Shown here: positions 8,923 to 25,746 of the stretch, piece by piece
How positions within the stretch are numbered: position 1 is the first letter of the stretch
How the letters are laid out: the number at the start of each line of letters is the position of its first letter
Assembly (NCBI GenBank): GCA_017409345.1
Contig: JAFQSX010000017.1
Location: 1 to 64,000, forward strand
From: Muribaculaceae bacterium
Lineage (GTDB): Bacteria; Bacteroidota; Bacteroidia; Bacteroidales; Muribaculaceae
DNA length: 64,000 nt
Reading direction: 5' to 3'
The notes under the pieces: generated by a model
Seen by the model: the letters and a program-made list of their open reading frames with translations, nothing else
The model's database searches: none
Told to the model about the DNA's origin: nothing
Made by a program: the position numbers and the translations under genes

Positions 8923-8997
8923 TGGGCGTTGACGGATTCGAACCGCCGACCCTCTGCTTGTAAGGCAGATGCTCTGAACCAGCTGAGCTAAACGCCC
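8923..8997 (-). tRNA. tRNA-Val(UAC), copy next to the integrase
   Basis: The minus strand reads from GGGCGTT with acceptor partner AACGCCC, a D-arm AGCTC..GAGC, the anticodon stem TCTGC/GCAGA around loop CTTACAA (anticodon TAC, codon GUA), and the T-loop GGTTCGAATCC. Base 8923 is the discriminator A. The 3' end faces the integrase, so this gene is the likely attB/attR site. It is identical in its whole length to the second copy 38 bases away. Confidence 0.95.
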
Positions 8998-9035
8998 TAA
9001 TTGGGGATGCTTTCTTGAGAAGGAATTTTGAGTTG

Positions 9036-9110
9036 TGGGCGTTGACGGATTCGAACCGCCGACCCTCTGCTTGTAAGGCAGATGCTCTGAACCAGCTGAG
9101 CTAAACGCCC
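9036..9110 (-). tRNA. tRNA-Val(UAC), promoter-proximal copy
   Basis: Same sequence as the copy at 8923-8997: anticodon loop CTTACAA (TAC) and complete cloverleaf arms. It is the first of the pair from the promoter at 9130-9161, so both are probably made from one transcript. Confidence 0.95.
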
Positions 9111-15595: not shown

Positions 15596-15603
15596 TACCT
15601 TTG
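15596..15603 (+). promoter_or_regulatory. -7 promoter box directly before the hybrid kinase start
   Basis: TACCTTTG ends only four bases before the ATG at 15608. With the usual distance from -7 box to transcription start, the mRNA would begin at or within a base or two of the start codon. No clear -33 box is seen. Confidence 0.45.
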
Positions 15604-15607
15604 CAAT

Positions 15608-18040
15608 ATGAAAACTCTCTCTTTAAAAGTTGCGATAGGATACATTATTATTATATTCCTATTTATAGGCACTTCATATTATATAAAGCGACAGGCCTCT
15701 ATTTTCTCATCGAGTAATAAATTAGAGGACTCTATTCAATCACGTCGCACATCATGCGACCATCTTATTGGATTAGTACTTGAAGCCGAAGCGTTGGCAC
15801 AGACATCAAGTATTGGAGACAATACCTCGTATAAAAAATACATATCAACTCTAAATCACATTGATTCAGCAATAATATTGCTTGATTCTATCTTTATTGA
15901 TTCCTCTAAACTTCTTCTTGACTCGTTGGCCAACACCATACATTATAAAGCTCTTATCGTAAAAAATCTTTATGAAATTTCTTCAAAAAATAACACAAAT
16001 ACCTACCAAAAACAAATCGAAGATTTAATTGCTAAATACAGCAATACTACTAATACGACCAACACCATCACAACAGTGATTAGTGAACAAAAAACAATTA
16101 CAATCGAAAAACCAAAGAAGAATGTAATAAGGCGCATCAAAGATGTGTTCAAGCCCGGGAACATCGATACTACAAATATTTCAAATACTTCTACGACATC
16201 AAGCGACACCTCAACTCGACTTGAAACAAAAACCACGAACCTGAGAAATGACTTCAATCGTATAAACTCTAATGCCTTACAACAAAAAATAAACCGACTT
16301 AATAAAATAAAAGGCAATATTGAAATCTTAAGAACTGAAGGAGGTGAATTGAGCTTGAAAATCTCTTCACTCATCAATTACATTGAGCAAGCCGAACATA
16401 ATTTCCGCCAACTCGCGTTAAACAAAGATCGCGAACTAAGAGATCAAAGCGTTGACATTACTTTCCGAATTGCAATCATCGCTTCTACTCTTGCTATATT
16501 ATTTTTTATTATAATATGGCGCGATATCACTCGCAGGAACCAATACCGAAAGGATTTAGAAGTCGCTCGTCTCAAGGCTGAAAATCTACTTGAAGCAAGA
16601 GAAAAACTCATGCTCACCATCACTCACGACATTAAAGCTCCGGCGGGCGCCATTAAAGGTTATTCCGAACTGATTGAATCGGCACAACAACCGTCAAAAA
16701 ACAAAGAATATATTCAAGCCATAAACAATTCGGCCTCTCACTTATTAAATCTTGTTTCGGCCCTTTTAGACTACCACAAACTTGACTTTGATGAAATCGA
16801 AATTGCACGTGACCAATTCCATGTAGCAACAGTTCTTGACAGCATAGTCAAAAACTTCACCCCGGCAGCGAAAAAGAAAGGGTTAACCTTATCATCACAA
16901 ATAGCTTCTTCGACCGACTGCTACATCACTTGCGATTTATTCCGTCTTCGCCAAATAATTGACAACCTATTAAGTAACGCCATAAAATTCACCGACAAAG
17001 GCGATGTTTCGCTATCGGCCAACATCATTGGCTCATCCCTCAACCTCATCATAAAAGATAGTGGACGAGGGATATCTCAAGAGGAGCAAGAAGTTATTTT
17101 CGAAGAATTTACTAGATTAAAAAATGCCACCGGCATTGAAGGAACCGGATTAGGATTATCTATCGTGGCTAAAATCACTAGTTTATTGGGCGGAGAAATT
17201 TCTCTATCAAGTGCTCCTTCCGAAGGCTCATCTTTCTTTGTAACAATACCCGTCGAAATCATTGAAGATCCTAATATTGACAACCCCCAACCCAAAGACT
17301 TAGAAACTCTACCAACCAATACCTTAATTACATCTTCAATCCTTAAAATCATCATCATTGATGATGATCCTATTCAATTAAAATACACTCAAGCGATGCT
17401 ACATAGCATCAACAGCCAATGGGAAATAACCTGTTGTGCAAATATTGACAATGATTTCGAAAGAGCAATATCCAACACCCCCCACATTATCTTCTCTGAC
17501 ATAAATATGCCACAAATCAATGGATTCGATTTAGCAAAAAAAATACGCCAATCTCTTCCTTCTATTCCTATTATAGCCCTTACTGCCAATAGCAACATAT
17601 CCATTAATAAATATACCGAAAACGGATTTTCTTATTTATTAGCAAAGCCGTATAATCGTCAGCAACTCATTGACGTATTAAACAGATTTATCACTATTGA
17701 CATTGACTTATCTGCTATAACACAATATGCCGACAACGATGAAGAAACAAAAGCGCTACTACTCTCCACAGTACTCGAAGAAACGACCAAAAACAGGGCA
17801 GAAATTACAAAGGCAATAACATCGTGCGATAAAGAAACAACTTGCGCTATTGCCCATAAAATGCTCCCCCTTATTTCAATGATAAATGCGCCCGGAATAG
17901 AAGCATTTGAATATTTCAACAATCAGCGCAACAACTCCAATTGGACCACAACCGATAGTAACAATGCGAAAATCGTTTTAGAAACGATTGCAATCATAAT
18001 CCAGGCATTAGAAAAGTCCTATTGTAATAAAAAAAATTAA
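15608..18040 (+). CDS. Hybrid sensor histidine kinase with receiver and C-terminal Hpt-like domain
   Basis: 810 residues from the ATG at 15608. An in-frame ATG at 15554 would add 18 mostly hydrophobic residues, but it lies upstream of the -7 box. Order of parts: membrane helix 1 (about 8-26); a periplasmic region of about 260 residues with a Thr/Asn/Ser-rich stretch and coiled coil; helix 2 (about 286-306); HisKA with His340 (THDIKAP); HATPase with N, G1 (DSGRGIS) and G2 (GTGLGLS) boxes; receiver with Asp631 (FSDINMP); and a helical end with AHKML (His750) like an Hpt domain. The chain could relay phosphate His340-Asp631-His750 to the response regulator encoded 56 bases downstream. The signal is unknown. 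Confidence 0.88.
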   Translation: MKTLSLKVAIGYIIIIFLFIGTSYYIKRQASIFSSSNKLEDSIQSRRTSCDHLIGLVLEAEALAQTSSIGDNTSYKKYISTLNHIDSAIILLDSIFIDSSKLLLDSLANTIHYKALIVKNLYEISSKNNTNTYQKQIEDLIAKYSNTTNTTNTITTVISEQKTITIEKPKKNVIRRIKDVFKPGNIDTTNISNTSTTSSDTSTRLETKTTNLRNDFNRINSNALQQKINRLNKIKGNIEILRTEGGELSLKISSLINYIEQAEHNFRQLALNKDRELRDQSVDITFRIAIIASTLAILFFIIIWRDITRRNQYRKDLEVARLKAENLLEAREKLMLTITHDIKAPAGAIKGYSELIESAQQPSKNKEYIQAINNSASHLLNLVSALLDYHKLDFDEIEIARDQFHVATVLDSIVKNFTPAAKKKGLTLSSQIASSTDCYITCDLFRLRQIIDNLLSNAIKFTDKGDVSLSANIIGSSLNLIIKDSGRGISQEEQEVIFEEFTRLKNATGIEGTGLGLSIVAKITSLLGGEISLSSAPSEGSSFFVTIPVEIIEDPNIDNPQPKDLETLPTNTLITSSILKIIIIDDDPIQLKYTQAMLHSINSQWEITCCANIDNDFERAISNTPHIIFSDINMPQINGFDLAKKIRQSLPSIPIIALTANSNISINKYTENGFSYLLAKPYNRQQLIDVLNRFITIDIDLSAITQYADNDEETKALLLSTVLEETTKNRAEITKAITSCDKETTCAIAHKMLPLISMINAPGIEAFEYFNNQRNNSNWTTTDSNNAKIVLETIAIIIQALEKSYCNKKN

Positions 18041-18068
18041 CGAAGATTATTTCATCGATAAAATACAT

Positions 18069-18076
18069 TACCTTTG
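18069..18076 (+). promoter_or_regulatory. Possible -7 box ahead of the NtrC-type regulator
   Basis: TACCTTTG lies in the 56-bp gap between kinase and regulator, 20 bases ahead of the regulator ATG. The regulator may therefore have its own promoter besides read-through from the kinase gene. Confidence 0.4.
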
Positions 18077-18096
18077 TATCACTTTTACAATTTTAG

Positions 18097-19419
18097 ATGA
18101 GTGCCATATTAATAATAGAAGACGATATCACATTCTTAACTATGATAAAAGCATGGTTAAGTAGGAATGGGTTTAAGGTTGATAGCGCATCATCCATCTC
18201 TCAAGGCTTAAAAGCCATTGACAACTCTCAATACGACCTCATTTTATCCGACATGCGCTTGCCCGATGGGGAAGGCATTTCTATTATCGACCACTTAAAA
18301 AAATTAGACACCCCCTCCCCTATCATAATCATGACAAGTTATGCCGACATCCAAAATGCGGTTAATGCCATGAAACGTGGAGCAGTGGATTACATCGCCA
18401 AACCAATAAACCCCGAGGTTCTTCTCGAAAAAATTAATAGTGCACTAATCTCATCACCACAAACAAAGGGAACACCCACTACCTACAAAAAGAGTTTTAC
18501 ACAATCTCCCAAACTCATAGAAGGCAATAGTGAAGTCGCTAAACGTCTTTATGGCTATGTATCACTCGTTGCCCCCACCTCTATGTCGGTCCTTATCACT
18601 GGCGCCAACGGAACCGGCAAAGAATATGTAGCTCATCGCATTCACCAACAAAGTCGTCGTAGCAACAAGCCATTTATTGCAATCGATTGTGGCGCACTTC
18701 TAAAAGATCTTGCCGCCTCGGAGCTTTTCGGTCATAAAAAAGGGGCTTTTACCGGTGCAACAACAGATAAAGTAGGGGCATTTTGCGAAGCGAATGGCGG
18801 AACAATCTTCCTTGATGAAGTAGGGAATCTAAGCTACGACATACAAGTTCAACTACTTCGCGCCATTCAAGAACGAAAAATACGCCCCATTGGCTCTACC
18901 AGAGAGATTGATATTGACGTAAGAATTATATGCGCCACCAACAAAGACCTTCTAAAAGCCATTTCCGATGGAGAGTTTCGAGAAGACCTATTCCACCGGT
19001 TAAATGAATTCAATCTCGAAATGCCACTACTTTGTCAACGAGGAAATGACATCATAATTTTTGCCAAACTATTTCTCAAACAAGCCAACGAGGAACTTGA
19101 ACGCAACATTATCGGTTTTTCTGACGAAGCAATCAATGCAATGCTTAAATATAGTTGGCCGGGGAATCTTCGACAAATGAAAAACATTATACGTCGTGCA
19201 ACACTAATTACTCAAGGCGATACCATTTCACTCAATGACCTCGGTAGCGAATTTAACAATTTGTCCTCTCCTTCTATGCAACTACGCAATGAGGAGTCGG
19301 AACGCGACTTAATAATAAAAGCCCTAGACGCATGCAACAACAACAAAGCTCAAGCAGCACGCATGCTTGGCATTGATCGCAAAACGCTTTACAACAAAAT
19401 AAAGCTACACAACCTTTAA
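18097..19419 (+). CDS. NtrC-family sigma54-dependent response regulator
   Basis: 440 residues. The receiver domain (1-120) has the acidic pair in IIEDD, phospho-acceptor Asp52 (LSDMRLPDGEG) and Lys in YIAKP. The AAA+ domain (about 140-375) has Walker A GANGTGKE (169-176), the sigma54-contacting GAFTGA loop (216-221) and Walker B in TIFLDEVG. A Fis-type helix-turn-helix closes the protein (about 405-437, QAARMLGIDRKTLYNKIK). It must open promoters bound by RNA polymerase-sigma54. The kinase is directly upstream; the heptamer cluster and the sigma54 promoter directly downstream make the next gene its most likely target. Confidence 0.95.
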   Translation: MSAILIIEDDITFLTMIKAWLSRNGFKVDSASSISQGLKAIDNSQYDLILSDMRLPDGEGISIIDHLKKLDTPSPIIIMTSYADIQNAVNAMKRGAVDYIAKPINPEVLLEKINSALISSPQTKGTPTTYKKSFTQSPKLIEGNSEVAKRLYGYVSLVAPTSMSVLITGANGTGKEYVAHRIHQQSRRSNKPFIAIDCGALLKDLAASELFGHKKGAFTGATTDKVGAFCEANGGTIFLDEVGNLSYDIQVQLLRAIQERKIRPIGSTREIDIDVRIICATNKDLLKAISDGEFREDLFHRLNEFNLEMPLLCQRGNDIIIFAKLFLKQANEELERNIIGFSDEAINAMLKYSWPGNLRQMKNIIRRATLITQGDTISLNDLGSEFNNLSSPSMQLRNEESERDLIIKALDACNNNKAQAARMLGIDRKTLYNKIKLHNL

Positions 19420-19440
19420 TTCGACTCTACTTACCACACT

Positions 19441-19509
19441 GAATGTGTGGAATTTTTCCACATTCCACACCACACATTCCACACATTCCACCCCTCATCC
19501 AATTCCACA
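19441..19509 (+). promoter_or_regulatory. Cluster of TTCCACA heptamers: probable enhancer (UAS) for the sigma54 activator
   Basis: Six copies of TTCCAC[AC] lie in 70 bp: 19446-19452 (reverse), then forward at 19456-19462, 19463-19469, 19477-19483, 19486-19492 (TTCCACC) and 19503-19509. The first two make the palindrome TGTGGAATTTTTCCACA. GAATGTGTGGAA (19441-19452) and TTCCACACATTC (19477-19488) are a perfect 12-bp inverted repeat. The cluster ends 41 bases before the sigma54 promoter, on the side where NtrC-type activators bind. The binding protein is inferred from position. Confidence 0.65.
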
Positions 19510-19550
19510 ACACGCTCATTATAGCCAAATTAGATTCTTGTGCCATTTTT

Positions 19551-19566
19551 TGGCATGCGTATTGTC
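19551..19566 (+). promoter_or_regulatory. Sigma54 (-24/-12) promoter
   Basis: TGGCATGCGTATTGTC matches the consensus TGGCACGNNNNTTGCW at ten of twelve fixed positions, with the correct spacing of the two boxes; the mismatches are T for C in the -24 box and T for C in the -12 box. Transcription would begin near 19577, giving a leader of about 50 bases for the gene at 19630. Confidence 0.65.
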
Positions 19567-19629
19567 ATATCTATATATGAAGTCTCATTTTTGAAATTAT
19601 TAATAACTAAAAAAATAAAAACATTAATT

Positions 19630-20067
19630 ATGAAGAAACTCGTTTTAACAGTAACAATGGCAATCAGCCTCAGTGCAGCATTCGCACTTTCTAACACAAA
19701 TAGTTCTAACACTTCTACTTCAAGCAATGATTCTATTGCTCAACCCGACACTGTAGTAAAAAAAGAAGTTATCGCCATGTTTGACAGTACATGTCCCGAT
19801 ACTACAAAGAAGCAAGAAATGATTGCAATGTTCGACAGCGTAAAGCCAGACACTGTAGTTCCTAAATCTGAATTTATGATAGCCTCTTTAGATAGTACTT
19901 GTCCCGACACGACACAAAACAAACAAGACATCCTTTTTGCAGCTTTTGATAGCATCAACACTGACACTACAGTCGTGAAGAAAGATTGTTTCTATGTTAC
20001 AATCGACAGCATTAATCCTGACACTATTGCCACTCCCTCAAAAGCCGCTACATTCATGATTGCATAA
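19630..20067 (+). CDS. Exported protein of DSxxPDT repeats, probable target of the sigma54 system
   Basis: 145 residues. The ATG at 19630 starts a clean signal peptide (MKKLVLTVTMAISLSAAFA); the upstream in-frame ATG at 19540 lies before the sigma54 promoter and is excluded if that promoter is used. The mature protein is almost wholly six units of about 17-22 residues built on [N/F/L/I]-D-S-x-x-[P/T]-D-T: NDSIAQPDT, FDSTCPDT, FDSVKPDT, LDSTCPDT, FDSINTDT and IDSINPDT, separated by Lys-rich or hydrophobic spacers. Two units share DSTCPDT, so the protein has a few Cys residues. There is no membrane helix or lipobox. I do not recognise the family and assign no function. It ends in its own terminator. 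Confidence 0.75.
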   Translation: MKKLVLTVTMAISLSAAFALSNTNSSNTSTSSNDSIAQPDTVVKKEVIAMFDSTCPDTTKKQEMIAMFDSVKPDTVVPKSEFMIASLDSTCPDTTQNKQDILFAAFDSINTDTTVVKKDCFYVTIDSINPDTIATPSKAATFMIA

Positions 20068-20120
20068 GGATTCATAAACAATCTATAATACGATTGTAAT
20101 TATTTAATCAATCATTCACC

Positions 20121-20162
20121 AAGGAAGGAGCATCACACCATAAGATGATCCTTCCTTTTTAT
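20121..20162 (+). terminator. Terminator of the repeat-protein gene
   Basis: AAGGAAGGA (20121-20129) pairs with TCCTTCCTT (20149-20157), extended by CATC/GATG, followed by six T. Confidence 0.8.
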
Positions 20163-20402
20163 TGTTTCATATTAATCGAGTGAAAGTACAAACCGAACAT
20201 AGTTTTCACATTTTTATCTATAACCAGTTTATGCTACAATCATTAAAAGATTTCGTTTTATAAAAATAAGAAAGATTGCACTGTTTTCATCATCTGTTCT
20301 TGTCCTAATCCATGGCACGTAATTTCAACTACATATTAACAAATCGTTCTGATGCCAACCTGCGCCACCCCTACCAATTAACATCTATCAATCACAACAA
20401 AA
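20163..20402. other. Gap of 240 bases without a recognisable gene
   Basis: The A/T-rich sequence between the repeat-protein terminator and the por operon terminator contains no credible frame. A TGGCACG word at 20313-20319 resembles a -24 box but lacks a -12 partner. Confidence 0.6.
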
Positions 20403-20426
20403 AAAGAGGGAGCTTTCTCCCTCTTT
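20403..20426 (-). terminator. Terminator of the por operon
   Basis: A perfect 10-bp stem AAAGAGGGAG/CTCCCTCTTT with a four-base loop, 25 bases past the porN stop; the minus-strand flank is T-rich. Confidence 0.8.
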
Positions 20427-20450
20427 ATACCATAATATATCATTTCGCAA

Positions 20451-21605
20451 TTACTTACGACGACGTACTGATCGCACTGCCGAATTACTATTGCTTTTTA
20501 CCTTGCTTTCTTTTACTTTAGTTTCTTTGCGTTTTACAGGCTTACGATCGTTGCTTTTTTCTTTTGAGCGAGATGAGCGAGATGAGCGAGATGACGATTT
20601 TTTATCCTCTTTCACGGTAGCATTGTCTTCATCTTCTTTTACTGACGTTGAATCATTTTCTTCCTCCATTTGAGCAGCCTTTGCTTCTTCGGCTTCGCGC
20701 TTAGCAATTATTTCTTCGCGATCAGGTATCCAAAGTTTGTTTTCAAATGAGTCAAGACGCGCTTGGATGCTATCTTGAGCACGATGGCGAGCATCTTCAT
20801 CGGGATAAAGTTGCATCATTGACTTATTTTGAAGGTTTCTAGTCTTATAAATATCTCCTTTATACATTGACAACAAGAAGAAATCGTCATAAGTATATTT
20901 TGGAAGATTATTATCATCGTCGGTAAAGATGTATTGTTGAGCCATCCATGGACGGATATCTTGCAATTTCACCCAAAACATTGGATATTTCATCGCTTCG
21001 CCACCAAAATCACCCGAACGATGAAGTACCGGACAGATAGCTTCTACACGAGTGCGCATCTGGTTACTGCGTGAATCAAATTCCCAACGCTCAAGGATAT
21101 AATATGACAACACTTCATTTGCAGGCACATCACTATCATCAATAGTGAACTTGGGGTTCTTTTCGGTTGAACCTTTAGCCTCATCATACAACACGTGGAA
21201 ACGATCAAGCATATCACGAACCTTGATACGATATTCATCTGTAAAAATCTCACGACCATCAAGATACTCATATGCTTGAATCTGATTATTGGCCAATAGT
21301 CGCATAATTATGCGAAATAGGTTTTCTTGATCTTGTGTCTTTTCTTCAGGGAAGAATAATGGCGCATTATTATCATTGTTGGCATCAAGTTGACGATAAA
21401 TAACACGCATCCACATCAAGTCAGCCTCACTTGTAGGCTCTTCCTCAAAGAATGACTGCATGCGGTCAGTTACTTGTGCTCCGTTTTGTTTATCACGATT
21501 ACGGTCATTGCCGTTTCGTTTACGCACTACTTGAGCCTGAGCCACTGATGACACAAAACCCACCATGGCAACTGCTATAATGATATATTTCTTGAATAGT
21601 TTCAT
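20451..21605 (-). CDS. porN: T9SS component PorN/GldN
   Basis: 384 residues with a signal peptide (about 1-24, ending VAQAQ). PorN is a periplasmic partner that with PorK forms the large ring under the outer membrane in the type IX system. The body (about 45-300, with the conserved EEPTSEADLMWMR and YIFTDDDNN regions) matches the GldN family. The last about 75 residues are low complexity: an acidic run, then Ser/Arg/Lys repeats (SSRSSRSSRSK) ending in RRRK. The Arg-Ser part is encoded by three copies of the 9-mer GAGCGAGAT (plus-strand reading, near 20566-20592). It is the last gene of the por operon. Confidence 0.93.
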   Translation of the reverse strand: MKLFKKYIIIAVAMVGFVSSVAQAQVVRKRNGNDRNRDKQNGAQVTDRMQSFFEEEPTSEADLMWMRVIYRQLDANNDNNAPLFFPEEKTQDQENLFRIIMRLLANNQIQAYEYLDGREIFTDEYRIKVRDMLDRFHVLYDEAKGSTEKNPKFTIDDSDVPANEVLSYYILERWEFDSRSNQMRTRVEAICPVLHRSGDFGGEAMKYPMFWVKLQDIRPWMAQQYIFTDDDNNLPKYTYDDFFLLSMYKGDIYKTRNLQNKSMMQLYPDEDARHRAQDSIQARLDSFENKLWIPDREEIIAKREAEEAKAAQMEEENDSTSVKEDEDNATVKEDKKSSSRSSRSSRSKEKSNDRKPVKRKETKVKESKVKSNSNSAVRSVRRRK

Positions 21606-21647
21606 ATTATATATTATGATTCTAAAACTGTTACTCTTATTAATTGA

Positions 21648-23201
21648 TTAGTTTACGATAACTTCAAGTGGAGAAAGGTCGCGGGTTATTCCATCGGGGC
21701 CCTTTGCCTTAATACGTGATATATAGAAACGTTTTCCACGTGATAGTCGTTTAAACTGATCTTTTTGTCGTTGTGAGAAATTTACTCCATTTGACACCTC
21801 CGGAATAGCATTACCCATTGAATCAAAGAACACTGTTTCGAAACTCAATACAGTAAAACTTATATTAAGCAATCCGTCATCAATAGCAGCCCCTATGCCG
21901 GGTGCTTGCAACAATAGCGCCTTTGAGAATGGCTTTCCACCAAGATACTTATCGGTATTACCCTTATCATCTTTATACGCGATAAATGGTGTTGGATTTG
22001 GCAATTTACGCACACGGAAAGTTGTTGTATTAACAGTTTGACTTCTTCCATCGACTGTGGCAGTAACGGTAATAACCGCATCAGAGCCAACAGTAGTAGG
22101 ACGTGCCACCCACGCATCTCCGCTACGAGTCAATGAGCCATTAGTCATCGATGCATTAACTTGTGACGTAGGGATACCGGGCACAGAGATACTTATAGGG
22201 TTATCAATCCCGGCATAAAGTACATTCATCATTGTTGCCGACACGGTTGCAGCCGGCTCAATCACTGTATAAGACGATTTGAAATCATGGCGTGCCATTG
22301 TACCATCGCCACGAGGCACTTCAAGATATCCCGAATAATCAAAGACTCCTGTTGAACCACAATTAAGCTCATACAATCCATTAGTTATCTGACGTCCACC
22401 AATAAAAATATTAGGACGTTGCGTAGTATCTATCGCTGCCAATACAACACGAGCCGAATAGCGACCACCTCGCATCACAATGCGGGAATCAGGAATTACA
22501 AATGCACTTAATTGATTAACTCGCACATCACTTGCATCTACATTTGTAAGCAAGTATGCAAGGGCCTCCCCTTCGGCATATCGCAAGTCGTTCTGAAGTT
22601 TTGCTAACAATGTAATTGCAGCAACAACCGGTTGGCTCTCAAACTTAGAGTTTTCCCAACTTTGTTTCGCCCCATTGCTAACAACTGACTCAGTTGACAA
22701 TATTTCATTTATATTAGCACGTTTTACAGTATCGGCAATTATTGAAGTAATATAGTTACGATAGTCATCTACCGATTTGCGCAACACCACTCCACGCTTA
22801 TTAGTTGGAGACAACATAATAAACGCCGCCGCTTCAAGGTCATCACGACGTTGAATATTATTCACATCGCCATCAGGGCCATCTGCCTCAACAACAATAA
22901 GTGTTTTAAGTGAATCGATATATTGATACAACTTTGCGGTTATTTGACGCACTTCAGTTGCCTTGTCATACCACACTTGACCTTTTTGTGGATTCTTTTG
23001 TGCGAATTCCTCAAGAGTGCGATATATGGCAAGGTTACGTTGCTCAATATTTTCGTTAGTGCGATTAAGACCTTCTTCTACCTGTGTAAAACCATCAAGC
23101 ACATCACTCGACACATTAAGCGCAAGCATTGCCGTTAAGACGATATACATCAAGTTTATCATCTTCTGACGGGGAGAAAGTCTTGTTATATTTTCAGCCA
23201 T
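21648..23201 (-). CDS. porM: T9SS motor component PorM/GldM
   Basis: 517 residues. A short cytoplasmic start is followed by one membrane helix (about 14-31, MINLMYIVLTAMLALNVSSD), then a long periplasmic part of stacked domains. The N-terminal SPRQKMINLMY motif is diagnostic. PorM with PorL forms the proton-driven rotary motor of the type IX system, and its periplasmic stalk contacts the PorK/N ring. It lies between porL and porN, as in other Bacteroidota. Confidence 0.95.
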   Translation of the reverse strand: MAENITRLSPRQKMINLMYIVLTAMLALNVSSDVLDGFTQVEEGLNRTNENIEQRNLAIYRTLEEFAQKNPQKGQVWYDKATEVRQITAKLYQYIDSLKTLIVVEADGPDGDVNNIQRRDDLEAAAFIMLSPTNKRGVVLRKSVDDYRNYITSIIADTVKRANINEILSTESVVSNGAKQSWENSKFESQPVVAAITLLAKLQNDLRYAEGEALAYLLTNVDASDVRVNQLSAFVIPDSRIVMRGGRYSARVVLAAIDTTQRPNIFIGGRQITNGLYELNCGSTGVFDYSGYLEVPRGDGTMARHDFKSSYTVIEPAATVSATMMNVLYAGIDNPISISVPGIPTSQVNASMTNGSLTRSGDAWVARPTTVGSDAVITVTATVDGRSQTVNTTTFRVRKLPNPTPFIAYKDDKGNTDKYLGGKPFSKALLLQAPGIGAAIDDGLLNISFTVLSFETVFFDSMGNAIPEVSNGVNFSQRQKDQFKRLSRGKRFYISRIKAKGPDGITRDLSPLEVIVN

Positions 23202-23247
23202 TTAAGTAATCTTAATTCTTATTATTTAAATCCTAATCAACACAAAA

Positions 23248-24264
23248 TCAACTATTAGAAGAATCTTCATTATTTGGATTTTGCATTCCATGAATGTCAC
23301 CACCCATCATTGGTCGATACATATTGATGGTCATTGCAGTAATCATCTTTTCATATACCGAGTTGAGTTGTTGCATATAGCGAGCCATCTTTTCGGTTTC
23401 TTCGCAGTAACGAGCACTTTGTTGTGAACTCTTTTCATACATATCACGAATATCTTTAATACCACGATTAACGCGATCAATTGAGTCAAGTTGTGATGAC
23501 ACACTCTTCAATTGTATTTCGTAGATTGTATTCAATCCACCGATATTACGATTAAGATCTTGCATTTGCTCTATATATCCGGTAGAACTGCTAGTAATAT
23601 TTTCAGAATTTTCGGTAATTGCACGATAAGATTCAAGCAACACATCCGATACCTTGTTTAATGCTTGTGTTGTTTCGCGTAGGCGCAACATCTCTTCACT
23701 TATAGCAGCCATTTGATCAAGATATTTTTGTGTTGCAGTTGTTAGTTCGGCCATACGTGCCAATTGGTCAGATGCTGCCGACATTTTTGCAATACTTTCC
23801 GATAGTGACATAGTGTCTTCTTCCGATAGATTAACCCCTGCAGGGATACCCACTGCACGACGAGCATCATCACCACTAACCGAAGGTGCAACTGATGGAA
23901 CAATAGGATTTCCATCTTCATCATATGCCACTTCGCCACCGCCAACAATACCGCCATTTACAATCACTCCACCACCATTGGCAAAATCGGGGCGATCTTC
24001 GGGGTCTTTAGAATCAAGAACAGGGAACACTTCTTCCCATTTATATTCTTTTGGAGGACGATCAAAGGCAGTTATAATAAACATCAAAACTTCTGTACCC
24101 ATACCTATGGTCAAGATTTCATTACCAAAGGGGAGGTGTAGAATTTTAAACAATGCTCCAAGAATTACGACAGCAGCACCAATACTATAAGCAAAGTTGA
24201 ATAATCGTTGGCCACCTTCCCAAGAGAAGAGGCGTCGTAGTCCGGCTTTACTAATCTTTCCCAT
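23248..24264 (-). CDS. porL: T9SS motor component PorL/GldL
   Basis: 338 residues. Two membrane helices (about 23-43 and 50-67, around FKILHLPFGNE) form the stator channel; the second contains a Glu in GTEVLMF, the type of residue used for proton transfer. A Gly-rich linker (about 97-110) leads to a long cytoplasmic coiled-coil region. It sits in the inner membrane with PorM and powers secretion. Confidence 0.94.
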   Translation of the reverse strand: MGKISKAGLRRLFSWEGGQRLFNFAYSIGAAVVILGALFKILHLPFGNEILTIGMGTEVLMFIITAFDRPPKEYKWEEVFPVLDSKDPEDRPDFANGGGVIVNGGIVGGGEVAYDEDGNPIVPSVAPSVSGDDARRAVGIPAGVNLSEEDTMSLSESIAKMSAASDQLARMAELTTATQKYLDQMAAISEEMLRLRETTQALNKVSDVLLESYRAITENSENITSSSTGYIEQMQDLNRNIGGLNTIYEIQLKSVSSQLDSIDRVNRGIKDIRDMYEKSSQQSARYCEETEKMARYMQQLNSVYEKMITAMTINMYRPMMGGDIHGMQNPNNEDSSNS

Positions 24265-24303
24265 ATATGAAGTCTATATAATATTCGTTATTAATTATTT
24301 TGA

Positions 24304-25746
24304 TTATCGTTTATTTTGCTTTTGTCCGCGAGCAAACCCGATTTGTGATCGCACACAACGGAAACCAATATAAGATCGTTGCTCATTTTGATATTCCCAC
24401 ATGCGAATATCACTTCTGATATTGTGAGCCACATCTTTCCAAGAACCACCACGCACGATTTTGCGTTTCATCTTATATGGATCTTCTTTGGCTGCATCAT
24501 ATCGATATTCAGGGTTAAGATCACTTGTGAGACGTCCTACGCTTTCAGTATATGCTGTAGATGTCCATTCGCTCACATTACCGGCCATATCATAAAGACC
24601 AAAATCGTTGGGTGAATATGTTCCCACTTGTGAGGTTATTAATTGACCGTCTTTCATATAGTTACCCTTTTGAGGCTTAAAGTTGGCATAAAAACAGCCT
24701 TTATCTTCAGTCATTGGAAGATCGCCTTCCCAAGGATACATATTTTCATTTACACCGGCACGAGCAGCATATTCCCATTCGGCATCAGTTGGCAAACGAT
24801 AAGGCTCAATATATACACCTTCTTTTCCCAATGTGCGACGAAGGAAATCAGTACGCCAATTAGCAAATGCATTTGCTTGCTCCCAACTTACACCTACCAC
24901 AGGGTAATTGCTATATCCACCATGCGCAAAATACATACGCACATAAGGTTCATTATAAGCATTATCAAAGTCGTTAATCCAAGCAGTAGTATCGGGATAC
25001 ACATTTACTATATATGTATTGAGGAAATCATAATCGCCTGTCAATCCACGAGTCACTGTTTCGCGAACGATTGTACCTTCATCATTTATATATGCTGTAT
25101 CTTTTGAAATAATAGGCACATCAGTAGGCACAGGCTTATCGGTATTATATTCTCTACGAGCAGGATCAAGACGGTGTTTGCGCTTTGCTGCTTGTGTGTG
25201 ATTATATATTTCGTAACGATAATTCATCTGTGTGGGGTCAAGTTCTTTGACTCCGGTAATGGGGTTAATGCGATATACGCTCTCTATTGCACGCGCTTCA
25301 TCTTCACTAGGATTTCGCCATGGAATAGGTTTATTCCAATTGAGATAAGGCTTTATAGGATTACCTTCGCGATCTTCCTCTATCTTAAATTCCTCATTGC
25401 CACCATACGAAGGATCGGCAAGACGTTCACGAATAATTGAGTCTCGTACCCAAAACACAAACTGTTTATATTTTGCATTTGTGATTTCGGTTTCATCCAT
25501 CCAAAATGCATCAACCGAAATGCCACGAGGGTCTGCTTTAAGATTCCACGCGCTGTCGGCCTTTTGTGGACCGACTTCCATCGAACCACGGTCAACCAAT
25601 ACCATCCCGTAGGGAGTAGGCTCGGCCCATGAAGTACCACTAACTCCGGTAACTTCGCCGCCTGCCGAACTTTGACCGCCCGCGAAACATGAACTCACGA
25701 GCAATGCGACAACGATAGGTAATAGATAAATAGAAACTTTTTTCAT
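24304..25746 (-). CDS. porK: T9SS lipoprotein PorK/GldK
   Basis: 480 residues. A lipoprotein signal ends at Cys20 (LLVSSC), so the protein is lipid-anchored, and in known systems it forms with PorN a ring on the periplasmic face of the outer membrane. The body has the fold of formylglycine-generating (SUMF1-type) enzymes: DRGSMEVG near the start, WEQANAFANWR, RLPTDAEWEYAARAG, GNVSEWT and GFRCVR. In PorK this fold is structural. The gene is two bases after porP. Confidence 0.95.
   Translation of the reverse strand: MKKVSIYLLPIVVALLVSSCFAGGQSSAGGEVTGVSGTSWAEPTPYGMVLVDRGSMEVGPQKADSAWNLKADPRGISVDAFWMDETEITNAKYKQFVFWVRDSIIRERLADPSYGGNEEFKIEEDREGNPIKPYLNWNKPIPWRNPSEDEARAIESVYRINPITGVKELDPTQMNYRYEIYNHTQAAKRKHRLDPARREYNTDKPVPTDVPIISKDTAYINDEGTIVRETVTRGLTGDYDFLNTYIVNVYPDTTAWINDFDNAYNEPYVRMYFAHGGYSNYPVVGVSWEQANAFANWRTDFLRRTLGKEGVYIEPYRLPTDAEWEYAARAGVNENMYPWEGDLPMTEDKGCFYANFKPQKGNYMKDGQLITSQVGTYSPNDFGLYDMAGNVSEWTSTAYTESVGRLTSDLNPEYRYDAAKEDPYKMKRKIVRGGSWKDVAHNIRSDIRMWEYQNEQRSYIGFRCVRSQIGFARGQKQNKR

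Follow-up and report, generated by a model that had tools for sequence, protein, structure and literature searches.

A probable sigma54 phosphorelay locus of Muribaculaceae with a conserved palindrome as likely operator and a repeatedly rebuilt exported protein

We analyzed a window of 64,000 nucleotides from a Muribaculaceae bacterium (contig JAFQSX010000017.1 of GenBank assembly GCA_017409345.1, positions 1 to 64,000 of the forward strand), in which three consecutive plus-strand genes between acpP and gldN encode a hybrid kinase, an NtrC-type response regulator and a small exported protein (Table 1). Together with a palindrome and a -24/-12 promoter element lying between the last two genes, these probably form a sigma54 phosphorelay that switches on an exported repeat protein in response to envelope or antimicrobial stress. 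In the mechanism we propose, the periplasmic helical-bundle sensor of the membrane kinase would detect an envelope signal, and phosphate would pass from the kinase receiver through a histidine phosphotransfer (HPt)-like module to the regulator, as the domains and a conserved histidine suggest. The regulator would then bind GTGTGGAA-N3-TTCCACAC, probably spreading onto neighboring TTCCACA half-sites, and loop to the -24/-12 promoter about 106 bp away, activating the gene of a short, exported, disorder-like repeat protein, the only output detected in the genus of the window. We infer DNA binding, sigma54 dependence and the order of the phosphorelay from sequence. The draft genome (2.09 Mb, 75% complete, with the window on contig 12) contains one Sigma54_DBD match (rpoN, 157.7 bits) and, among sigma54 activators, three strong and two weak matches.

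An original prediction, made from the DNA letters alone, had described a hybrid kinase and an NtrC-type regulator with an intact GAFTGA motif, and Pfam bears out both. The kinase contains HisKA (residues 331-393), HATPase_c (444-550) and receiver (581-691) domains behind an N-terminus judged by eye to span the membrane, while the regulator contains Response_reg (4e-28), Sigma54_activat (8.6e-65), an AAA lid and a Fis-type HTH_8 (6.3e-15), with GAFTGA intact in its translation, as in the NtrC-type class. Its scores stayed below the equivalog cut-offs for ZraR (367.6 of 760 bits) and GlrR (364.2 of 763 bits) and below that of PEP_resp_reg, the model of the PEP-CTERM regulator PrsR (347.7 of 502.6 bits). 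At the C-terminal end of the kinase, the histidine of AHKMLP is conserved in 34 of 34 aligned kinases; this HPt-like region is probably an HPt domain, and a four-step phosphorelay is therefore likely. The predicted periplasmic helical sensor yielded TorS/QseE-like fold matches, and its core can be aligned outside the genus at 19-30% identity. A sequence-based alignment of the sensor against solved structures gave nothing useful (best E, 0.016), Foldseek alone returned no match with an E value of 0.001 or better, and PADLOC had no match for the kinase or the exported protein.

The original prediction had also placed six TTCCAC[AC] heptamers within 70 bp, and all six are found in 19446-19509: TTCCACA on the plus strand at 19456, 19463, 19477 and 19503, TTCCACC at 19486 and TTCCACA on the minus strand at 19446-19452. 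The window contains 21 copies of TTCCACA compared with 10.6 +/- 3.3 in shuffles, none of 100 of which reached that count. Two of the heptamers together form a palindrome, GTGTGGAA-TTT-TTCCACAT (19445-19463), and the draft genome has a single exact copy of its 17-bp core (TGTGGAWNNNWTCCACA). The number of plus-strand TTCCAC copies near the palindrome falls from 5 in the window to 4 and 3 in the same-genus species G103 and G053, 2 in G025 and 2 and 1 in two Paraprevotella loci (G, L and f numbers are our labels for genomes, loci and families). The palindrome is the conserved feature, not the count of six heptamers, and the remaining half-sites look secondary because their number varies between relatives. 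We therefore retain the proposal that the regulator acts at this site to drive the exported gene, which the comparisons below support, with the palindrome as predicted binding unit and likely operator in place of six equal heptamers. A wider regulon in the same genome was considered and rejected: three palindrome relatives with one mismatch all lie inside genes, and a scan at up to two mismatches returned background (37 versus 41 in the control). Because that count equals the control we claim a single site, although further outputs may have been missed in a genome of this completeness.

The promoter element TGGCATGCGTATTGTC agrees with TGGCAC-N5-TTGCA at 8 of 11 positions and with the consensus TGGCACG-N4-TTGCW at 9 of 12 by hand count; the element is thus present and, as shown below, conserved, while the '10 of 12' first given for it was slightly generous. 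The -24/-12 pattern has 46 near matches in the window versus 37 expected, and this promoter is one of three exact ones, which is weak against chance. The pattern alone would not stand out, and the element is credible because it is conserved. Relatives have better versions, namely TGGCACGCGCATTGTC in G103 and TGGCACACGCATTGCA in G053, and both TGGCACACGCATTGCA and TGGCACGGAGATTGCA (the latter in G377) match at 11 of 11 positions at a like place.

Conservation was assessed over 43 orthologous regulator loci, comprising the window, two loci from Paraprevotella (the best named relatives of the window locus) and 40 fetched loci, five of them from a family search and 35 from the 55 other genomes that matched in an order search. 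Palindrome, -24/-12 element and start of the exported gene are retained in G103 and G053, with variable stretches between them. Across the whole set, a kinase relative lies within 2.5 kb of the regulator in 33 loci, a palindrome within 3.2 kb in 21, a palindrome followed by a -24/-12 match in 19, and a palindrome, promoter and small signal-peptide gene in 15. Outside the 19, G143 has a weaker palindrome (three mismatches) with a like gene; G474 and G477, found by a composite pattern, show the same layout elements, and in two f30 genomes the palindrome stands in front of the output gene, on the upstream side of the regulator. Counted per strand, there were 21 palindrome-promoter pairs in 312 kb near these regulators versus 1 in 345 kb of the farther flanks of the same loci, and 1 at 71 other regulator loci (697 kb, mostly outside Bacteroidota). 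Rows bearing the operator cluster on the regulator tree, requiring 3 changes versus a shuffled mean of 15.0 (0 of 500 as low). An order-wide search with the composite pattern found 14 of 393 genomes, versus 1 of 393 in the control, with 9 of the 14 sites adjoining this kinase or regulator, four others only counted and one, in G227, beside neither. The original prediction had suggested checking whether relatives keep heptamers, promoter and repeat gene as one group, and the answer is positive across genera and families, supporting operator, promoter, regulator and exported gene as a conserved unit at the level of sequence.

A site in G227 (contig 17, L218:6178-6320) consists of two palindromes followed by TGGCACAGGAATCGTT, with no ATG-started frame of at least 40 aa within 260 bp downstream; it may serve a small RNA or be what is left of a decayed target. 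Of the 43 regulators, 42 have the recognition helix DRKTLYNK, with the operator nearby or not. Their sigma54-contact loop is GSFTGA in 28, GAFTGA in 7, GSYTGA in 1 and GSFTSA or GSFTDA in 7 (L180, L182, L184, L189, L190, L193 and L197). None of these last seven has a palindrome-promoter pair nearby, and these distant orthologues may have ceased to function with sigma54. Helical phasing of the palindrome to the promoter (105-107, 115-118 and 125-126 bp; Rayleigh p of 0.0002 to 0.002 over 20 sites) was set aside as suggestive at most, because the sites share descent and their distances were entered manually.

The third gene had been proposed as a small exported gene with its own terminator, in agreement with its signal-peptide-like start (by eye) and the hairpin behind it (z of -4.6). 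In the genus of the window the repeat unit reads KxE-hydrophobic-A-hydrophobic-DSxxPDT, about 19 aa in the window protein, which has no Pfam or NCBIfam match at cut-off and is not assignable to the ZraP type; three further exported proteins run against Pfam reached no family cut-off. Across loci, the exported proteins share a signal-peptide-like start and a length of 54 to 223 residues, which amounts to a common format and not a common sequence. Their mature parts, with cleavage points guessed by rule, consist of 56 to 83% D, E, K, S, T, P, N and Q and are mostly net negative (the exceptions being one at +3 and one at 0). Sixteen proteins had sufficient length for a test of tandem periods, and in 12 of them a period scored above every one of 500 shuffles, at 19 residues in G000 and G103, 18 in G053, 15 and 22 in Paraprevotella, 21 in G286, 24 in G230 and G411, 26 in G477, 27 in G474, 29 in G329 and 33 in G143. 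Periodicity was weaker in G264 and G285, where 9 and 18 of 500 shuffles, respectively, reached the same level, and there was no period in the proteins of G180 and G181. By composition, then, the exported proteins appear short, mostly acidic and disorder-like, and the model of the window protein (predicted local distance difference test score of 32.7, three sequences aligned) is consistent with disorder without proving it. The ratio of nonsynonymous to synonymous substitution rates for the window protein is 0.13 versus G103 (kinase and regulator, 0.09) and 0.23 versus G053 (regulator, 0.08), revealing purifying selection.

Second copies of the palindrome were found directly before the membrane-fusion gene of a resistance-nodulation-division (RND) efflux operon in G025, G181 and G377. 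In G377 (L222), the one genome run against Pfam here, the fusion protein matches HlyD_D23 (6.3e-16) and an AcrB-type pump beside it matches ACR_tran (1113.5 bits). At E 1e-60 the fusion gene is present in 16 of 28 genomes and in 0 of 6 genomes of the window genus, whose other RND pumps were not looked at. The palindrome lies within 260 bp upstream in 10 of the 16 orthologues, with shuffle p values of 0.0025 (the floor) for nine and 0.012 for G227; it is present at 6 of the 12 orthologues that played no part in finding the link (G408 was among the discovery genomes). The idea of a contiguous circuit with one output fits the draft genome, with its one exact palindrome, and gives way in the wider family, as an RND operon there likewise has the palindrome upstream.

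A coiled-coil lipoprotein was rejected as a general second target, as 0 of its 30 best matches (29 with a readable gene) had a palindrome at up to three mismatches upstream. The family is present in 45 of 50 genomes and has a conserved C-terminal end, ILSTHPxDSY...ITNxxxFWxxSKYLVI. A palindrome and promoter precede its gene in G046 (L191) and G066 (L215), and a weak one does so in G405. Lipoprotein loci were recorded at L191, L215, L182, L184, L188, L193, L198, L181 and L183, several of which have the gene next to the orthologous regulator or to the kinase.

Several observations weigh against the proposed circuit. No palindrome-promoter pair lies within 3.2 kb in 24 of the 43 regulator loci, the -12 of the window promoter reads GT and not GC, the HPt-like region of the kinase has no Pfam Hpt match, and fold matches of a helical bundle such as the sensor are weakly specific. 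Behind the same operator and promoter, G025 (L161:8629-9100) encodes a PepSY-like exported protein and no repeat protein, apparently an output swapped under a retained switch. For the efflux genes, the degenerate palindrome pattern used in the scan was set after inspecting such sites, 6 of the 16 orthologues (G143, G133 and all four of f109) lack the palindrome, although the f109 genomes have the linked circuit, and the -12 is good in G377 and G286 and degenerate in most others. The efflux link is thus supported as regards the palindrome and less well as regards sigma54.

Two main options exist for the role of the exported protein, a protective effector or a feedback ligand; taken jointly, the protein most likely either has a protective or buffering effect on the envelope or exerts feedback on the kinase. 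On its own, the idea of a feedback ligand of the kinase sensor, resembling CpxP or ZraP of enterobacteria and keeping the kinase off until titrated or degraded in stress, is a minority possibility that deserves attention. The gene sits beside kinase and regulator in most loci having it, its product is exported by its start and carries short hydrophobic-acidic motifs that could be binding motifs, the structure of QseE, among the sensor fold matches, has been solved with the lipoprotein QseG bound (entry title 9m08), and CpxP/ZraP feedback is treated in PMC10848872. Against this, repeat unit, period and length vary by family while the sensor core stays alignable, and in G025 the unrelated PepSY-like protein takes the place of the repeat protein. 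Slightly more doubtful is the bolder view of a new exported class, fast-evolving hydrophobic-acidic tandem arrays rebuilt per lineage (periods 15 to 33) that would serve as antimicrobial decoys or sponges or as cut peptides, with the RND pump as second arm of an undescribed defense relay.

Other explanations concern the switch itself. The site might be used by another activator, with the neighboring regulator acting elsewhere; the three strong activator matches in the draft genome would allow this, but it is improbable given the concentration of palindrome-promoter pairs near orthologues (21 versus 1) and the clustering of operator-bearing rows on their tree (3 changes versus 15.0). The palindrome directly follows the regulator stop and could by its sequence pair with itself, and might thus be a hairpin in RNA that ends the regulator transcript and no operator; we regard this as very improbable because no T-run follows it, a like palindrome that does not adjoin the regulator precedes the RND fusion gene, it stands upstream of the regulator and before the output gene in the two f30 genomes, and its distance to the promoter is largely kept. 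Least probable of all is that a housekeeping promoter drives the output gene and the -24/-12 match, weak against chance when taken alone, is incidental, since better matches stand at a like place in G053 and G377, and the TAnnTTTG box that the original prediction had suggested looking for, of which one each precedes the kinase and the regulator, does not occur on the plus strand in 18077-22538.

Within the genus, the regulator was found at E 1e-110 in 3 of 12 genomes, and in 1 of 4 among those at least 90% complete. The neighbor of acpP (L281-L292) is the kinase in the three regulator-bearing genomes and a different frame in the other nine, by eye truA-like in several and ferritin-like in one. 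The regulators of the genus group with Paraprevotella on the tree (100/97). The simplest reading is a single acquisition by the common ancestor of these three genomes, possibly by transfer, while loss from the remaining genomes is also conceivable.

In the ZraPSR system of enterobacteria, one locus contains the kinase ZraS, the sigma54 activator ZraR and the periplasmic protein ZraP, with a -24/-12 promoter. The present locus likewise joins a kinase, an NtrC-type regulator and a small exported protein behind a -24/-12 promoter, but its kinase is a hybrid with a receiver and an HPt-like region, its regulator falls below the ZraR cut-off, and its output has no Pfam family above cut-off and the look of a disordered repeat. 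It differs from QseE-QseG-QseF (GlrK/GlrR) in the hybrid kinase, the operator, the outputs and the unreached GlrR cut-off. The BaeSR regulon contains the RND pumps mdtABC and acrD and periplasmic Spy, and BaeR is not known to be a sigma54 activator; the pairing of an RND pump with a small exported protein in one regulon, seen here in families other than that of the window, is a likeness of regulon contents. The locus works like ZraPSR or QseEFG and, by the models tested, is a member of neither; its sigma54 two-component logic is ordinary, and its output is unusual in having been rebuilt repeatedly.

PMC10848872 links ZraPSR to envelope stress and antibiotics. The sigma54 regulon of Flavobacterium psychrophilum includes functions in protein quality control and envelope stress as well as exported proteins of unknown function (PMC9723704); its motif SM4, from the same phylum, is likewise a sigma54-type promoter that stands before genes for envelope stress and for exported proteins, whereas the accessible part of that paper names no operator or activator for the motif and connects it with neither a repeat protein nor an efflux pump. 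PMC12316311 treats predicted sigma54 promoters in Bacteroidia, for example at ATP-binding cassette-type antimicrobial peptide permeases, and cites GrpE and GroES of B. thetaiotaomicron as sigma54-dependent. Because of the F. psychrophilum regulon, and because an RND efflux operon elsewhere has the palindrome upstream, we propose, with less support, envelope damage or toxic compounds as the signal. In the literature searched, with subscription papers mostly outside it, we found no description of this operator or of the kinase-regulator-output set in Bacteroidales, nor is there one in the accessible parts of PMC12316311, PMC8050853, PMC9723704, PMC10197588 and PMC10848872; a term search of PMC3162934 came back empty.

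Table 1 Features of the locus, in window positions
Feature	Position	Strand	Basis or remark
Candidate housekeeping -7 box of the kinase gene, TACCTTTG	15596..15603	+	TAnnTTTG match, 4 nt before ATG
Hybrid sensor kinase, 810 aa	15608..18040	+	ATG at 15608; Pfam domains, HPt-like C-terminal region with AHKMLP
Candidate housekeeping -7 box of the regulator gene, TACCTTTG	18069..18076	+	TAnnTTTG match
NtrC-type sigma54-dependent response regulator, 440 aa	18097..19419	+	Domains, intact GAFTGA, recognition helix DRKTLYNK
Predicted palindromic operator, GTGTGGAATTTTTCCACAT	19445..19463	no strand	8-bp arms, one end mismatch, 3-bp spacer
Further half-sites TTCCAC[AC] at 19463, 19477, 19486, 19503	19463..19509	+	Sequence
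Predicted -24/-12 sigma54 promoter, TGGCATGCGTATTGTC	19551..19566	+	Starts 106 bp after palindrome start
Exported repeat protein gene, 145 aa	19630..20067	+	Signal-peptide-like start, ~19-aa units, C-terminal FMIA
Intrinsic terminator hairpin	20121..20157	+	Within 103-nt fold, -23.2 kcal/mol, z -4.6

The box before the kinase gene may be a chance match or belong to a leaderless transcript, because only 4 nt separate it from the ATG. Directly downstream of the locus, gldN, gldM, gldL and gldK, the type IX secretion core, lie on the minus strand (20451-25746); a gldK-like frame is found near the locus in G103 and none in G053 within the stretch listed. The type IX secretion genes, together with Paraprevotella as best named relatives, point to the Bacteroidales as the order of the window. 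The single tandem repeat of the window at score 50 (TGAGCGAGA x 3.3, 20565-20594) lies in the 3' part of gldN and encodes an SRSSRS stretch. Elsewhere in the window, two adjacent transfer RNA genes with equal score lie on the minus strand at 8923-9110.

The literature that we found says little on sigma54 activators and operators in Bacteroidales, and this locus makes a concrete operator and promoter available for testing, along with a kinase-regulator pair and an output; a cultured relative suited to such work is Paraprevotella xylaniphila YIT 11841 (L036). It also presents a recurrent format, in which an exported disorder-like repeat protein is replaced in sequence while the switch is kept and is linked to an efflux operon. 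If true, this would be an envelope-stress response of a large bacterial group that includes common gut commensals, and the same switch before efflux genes hints at an undescribed envelope defense.

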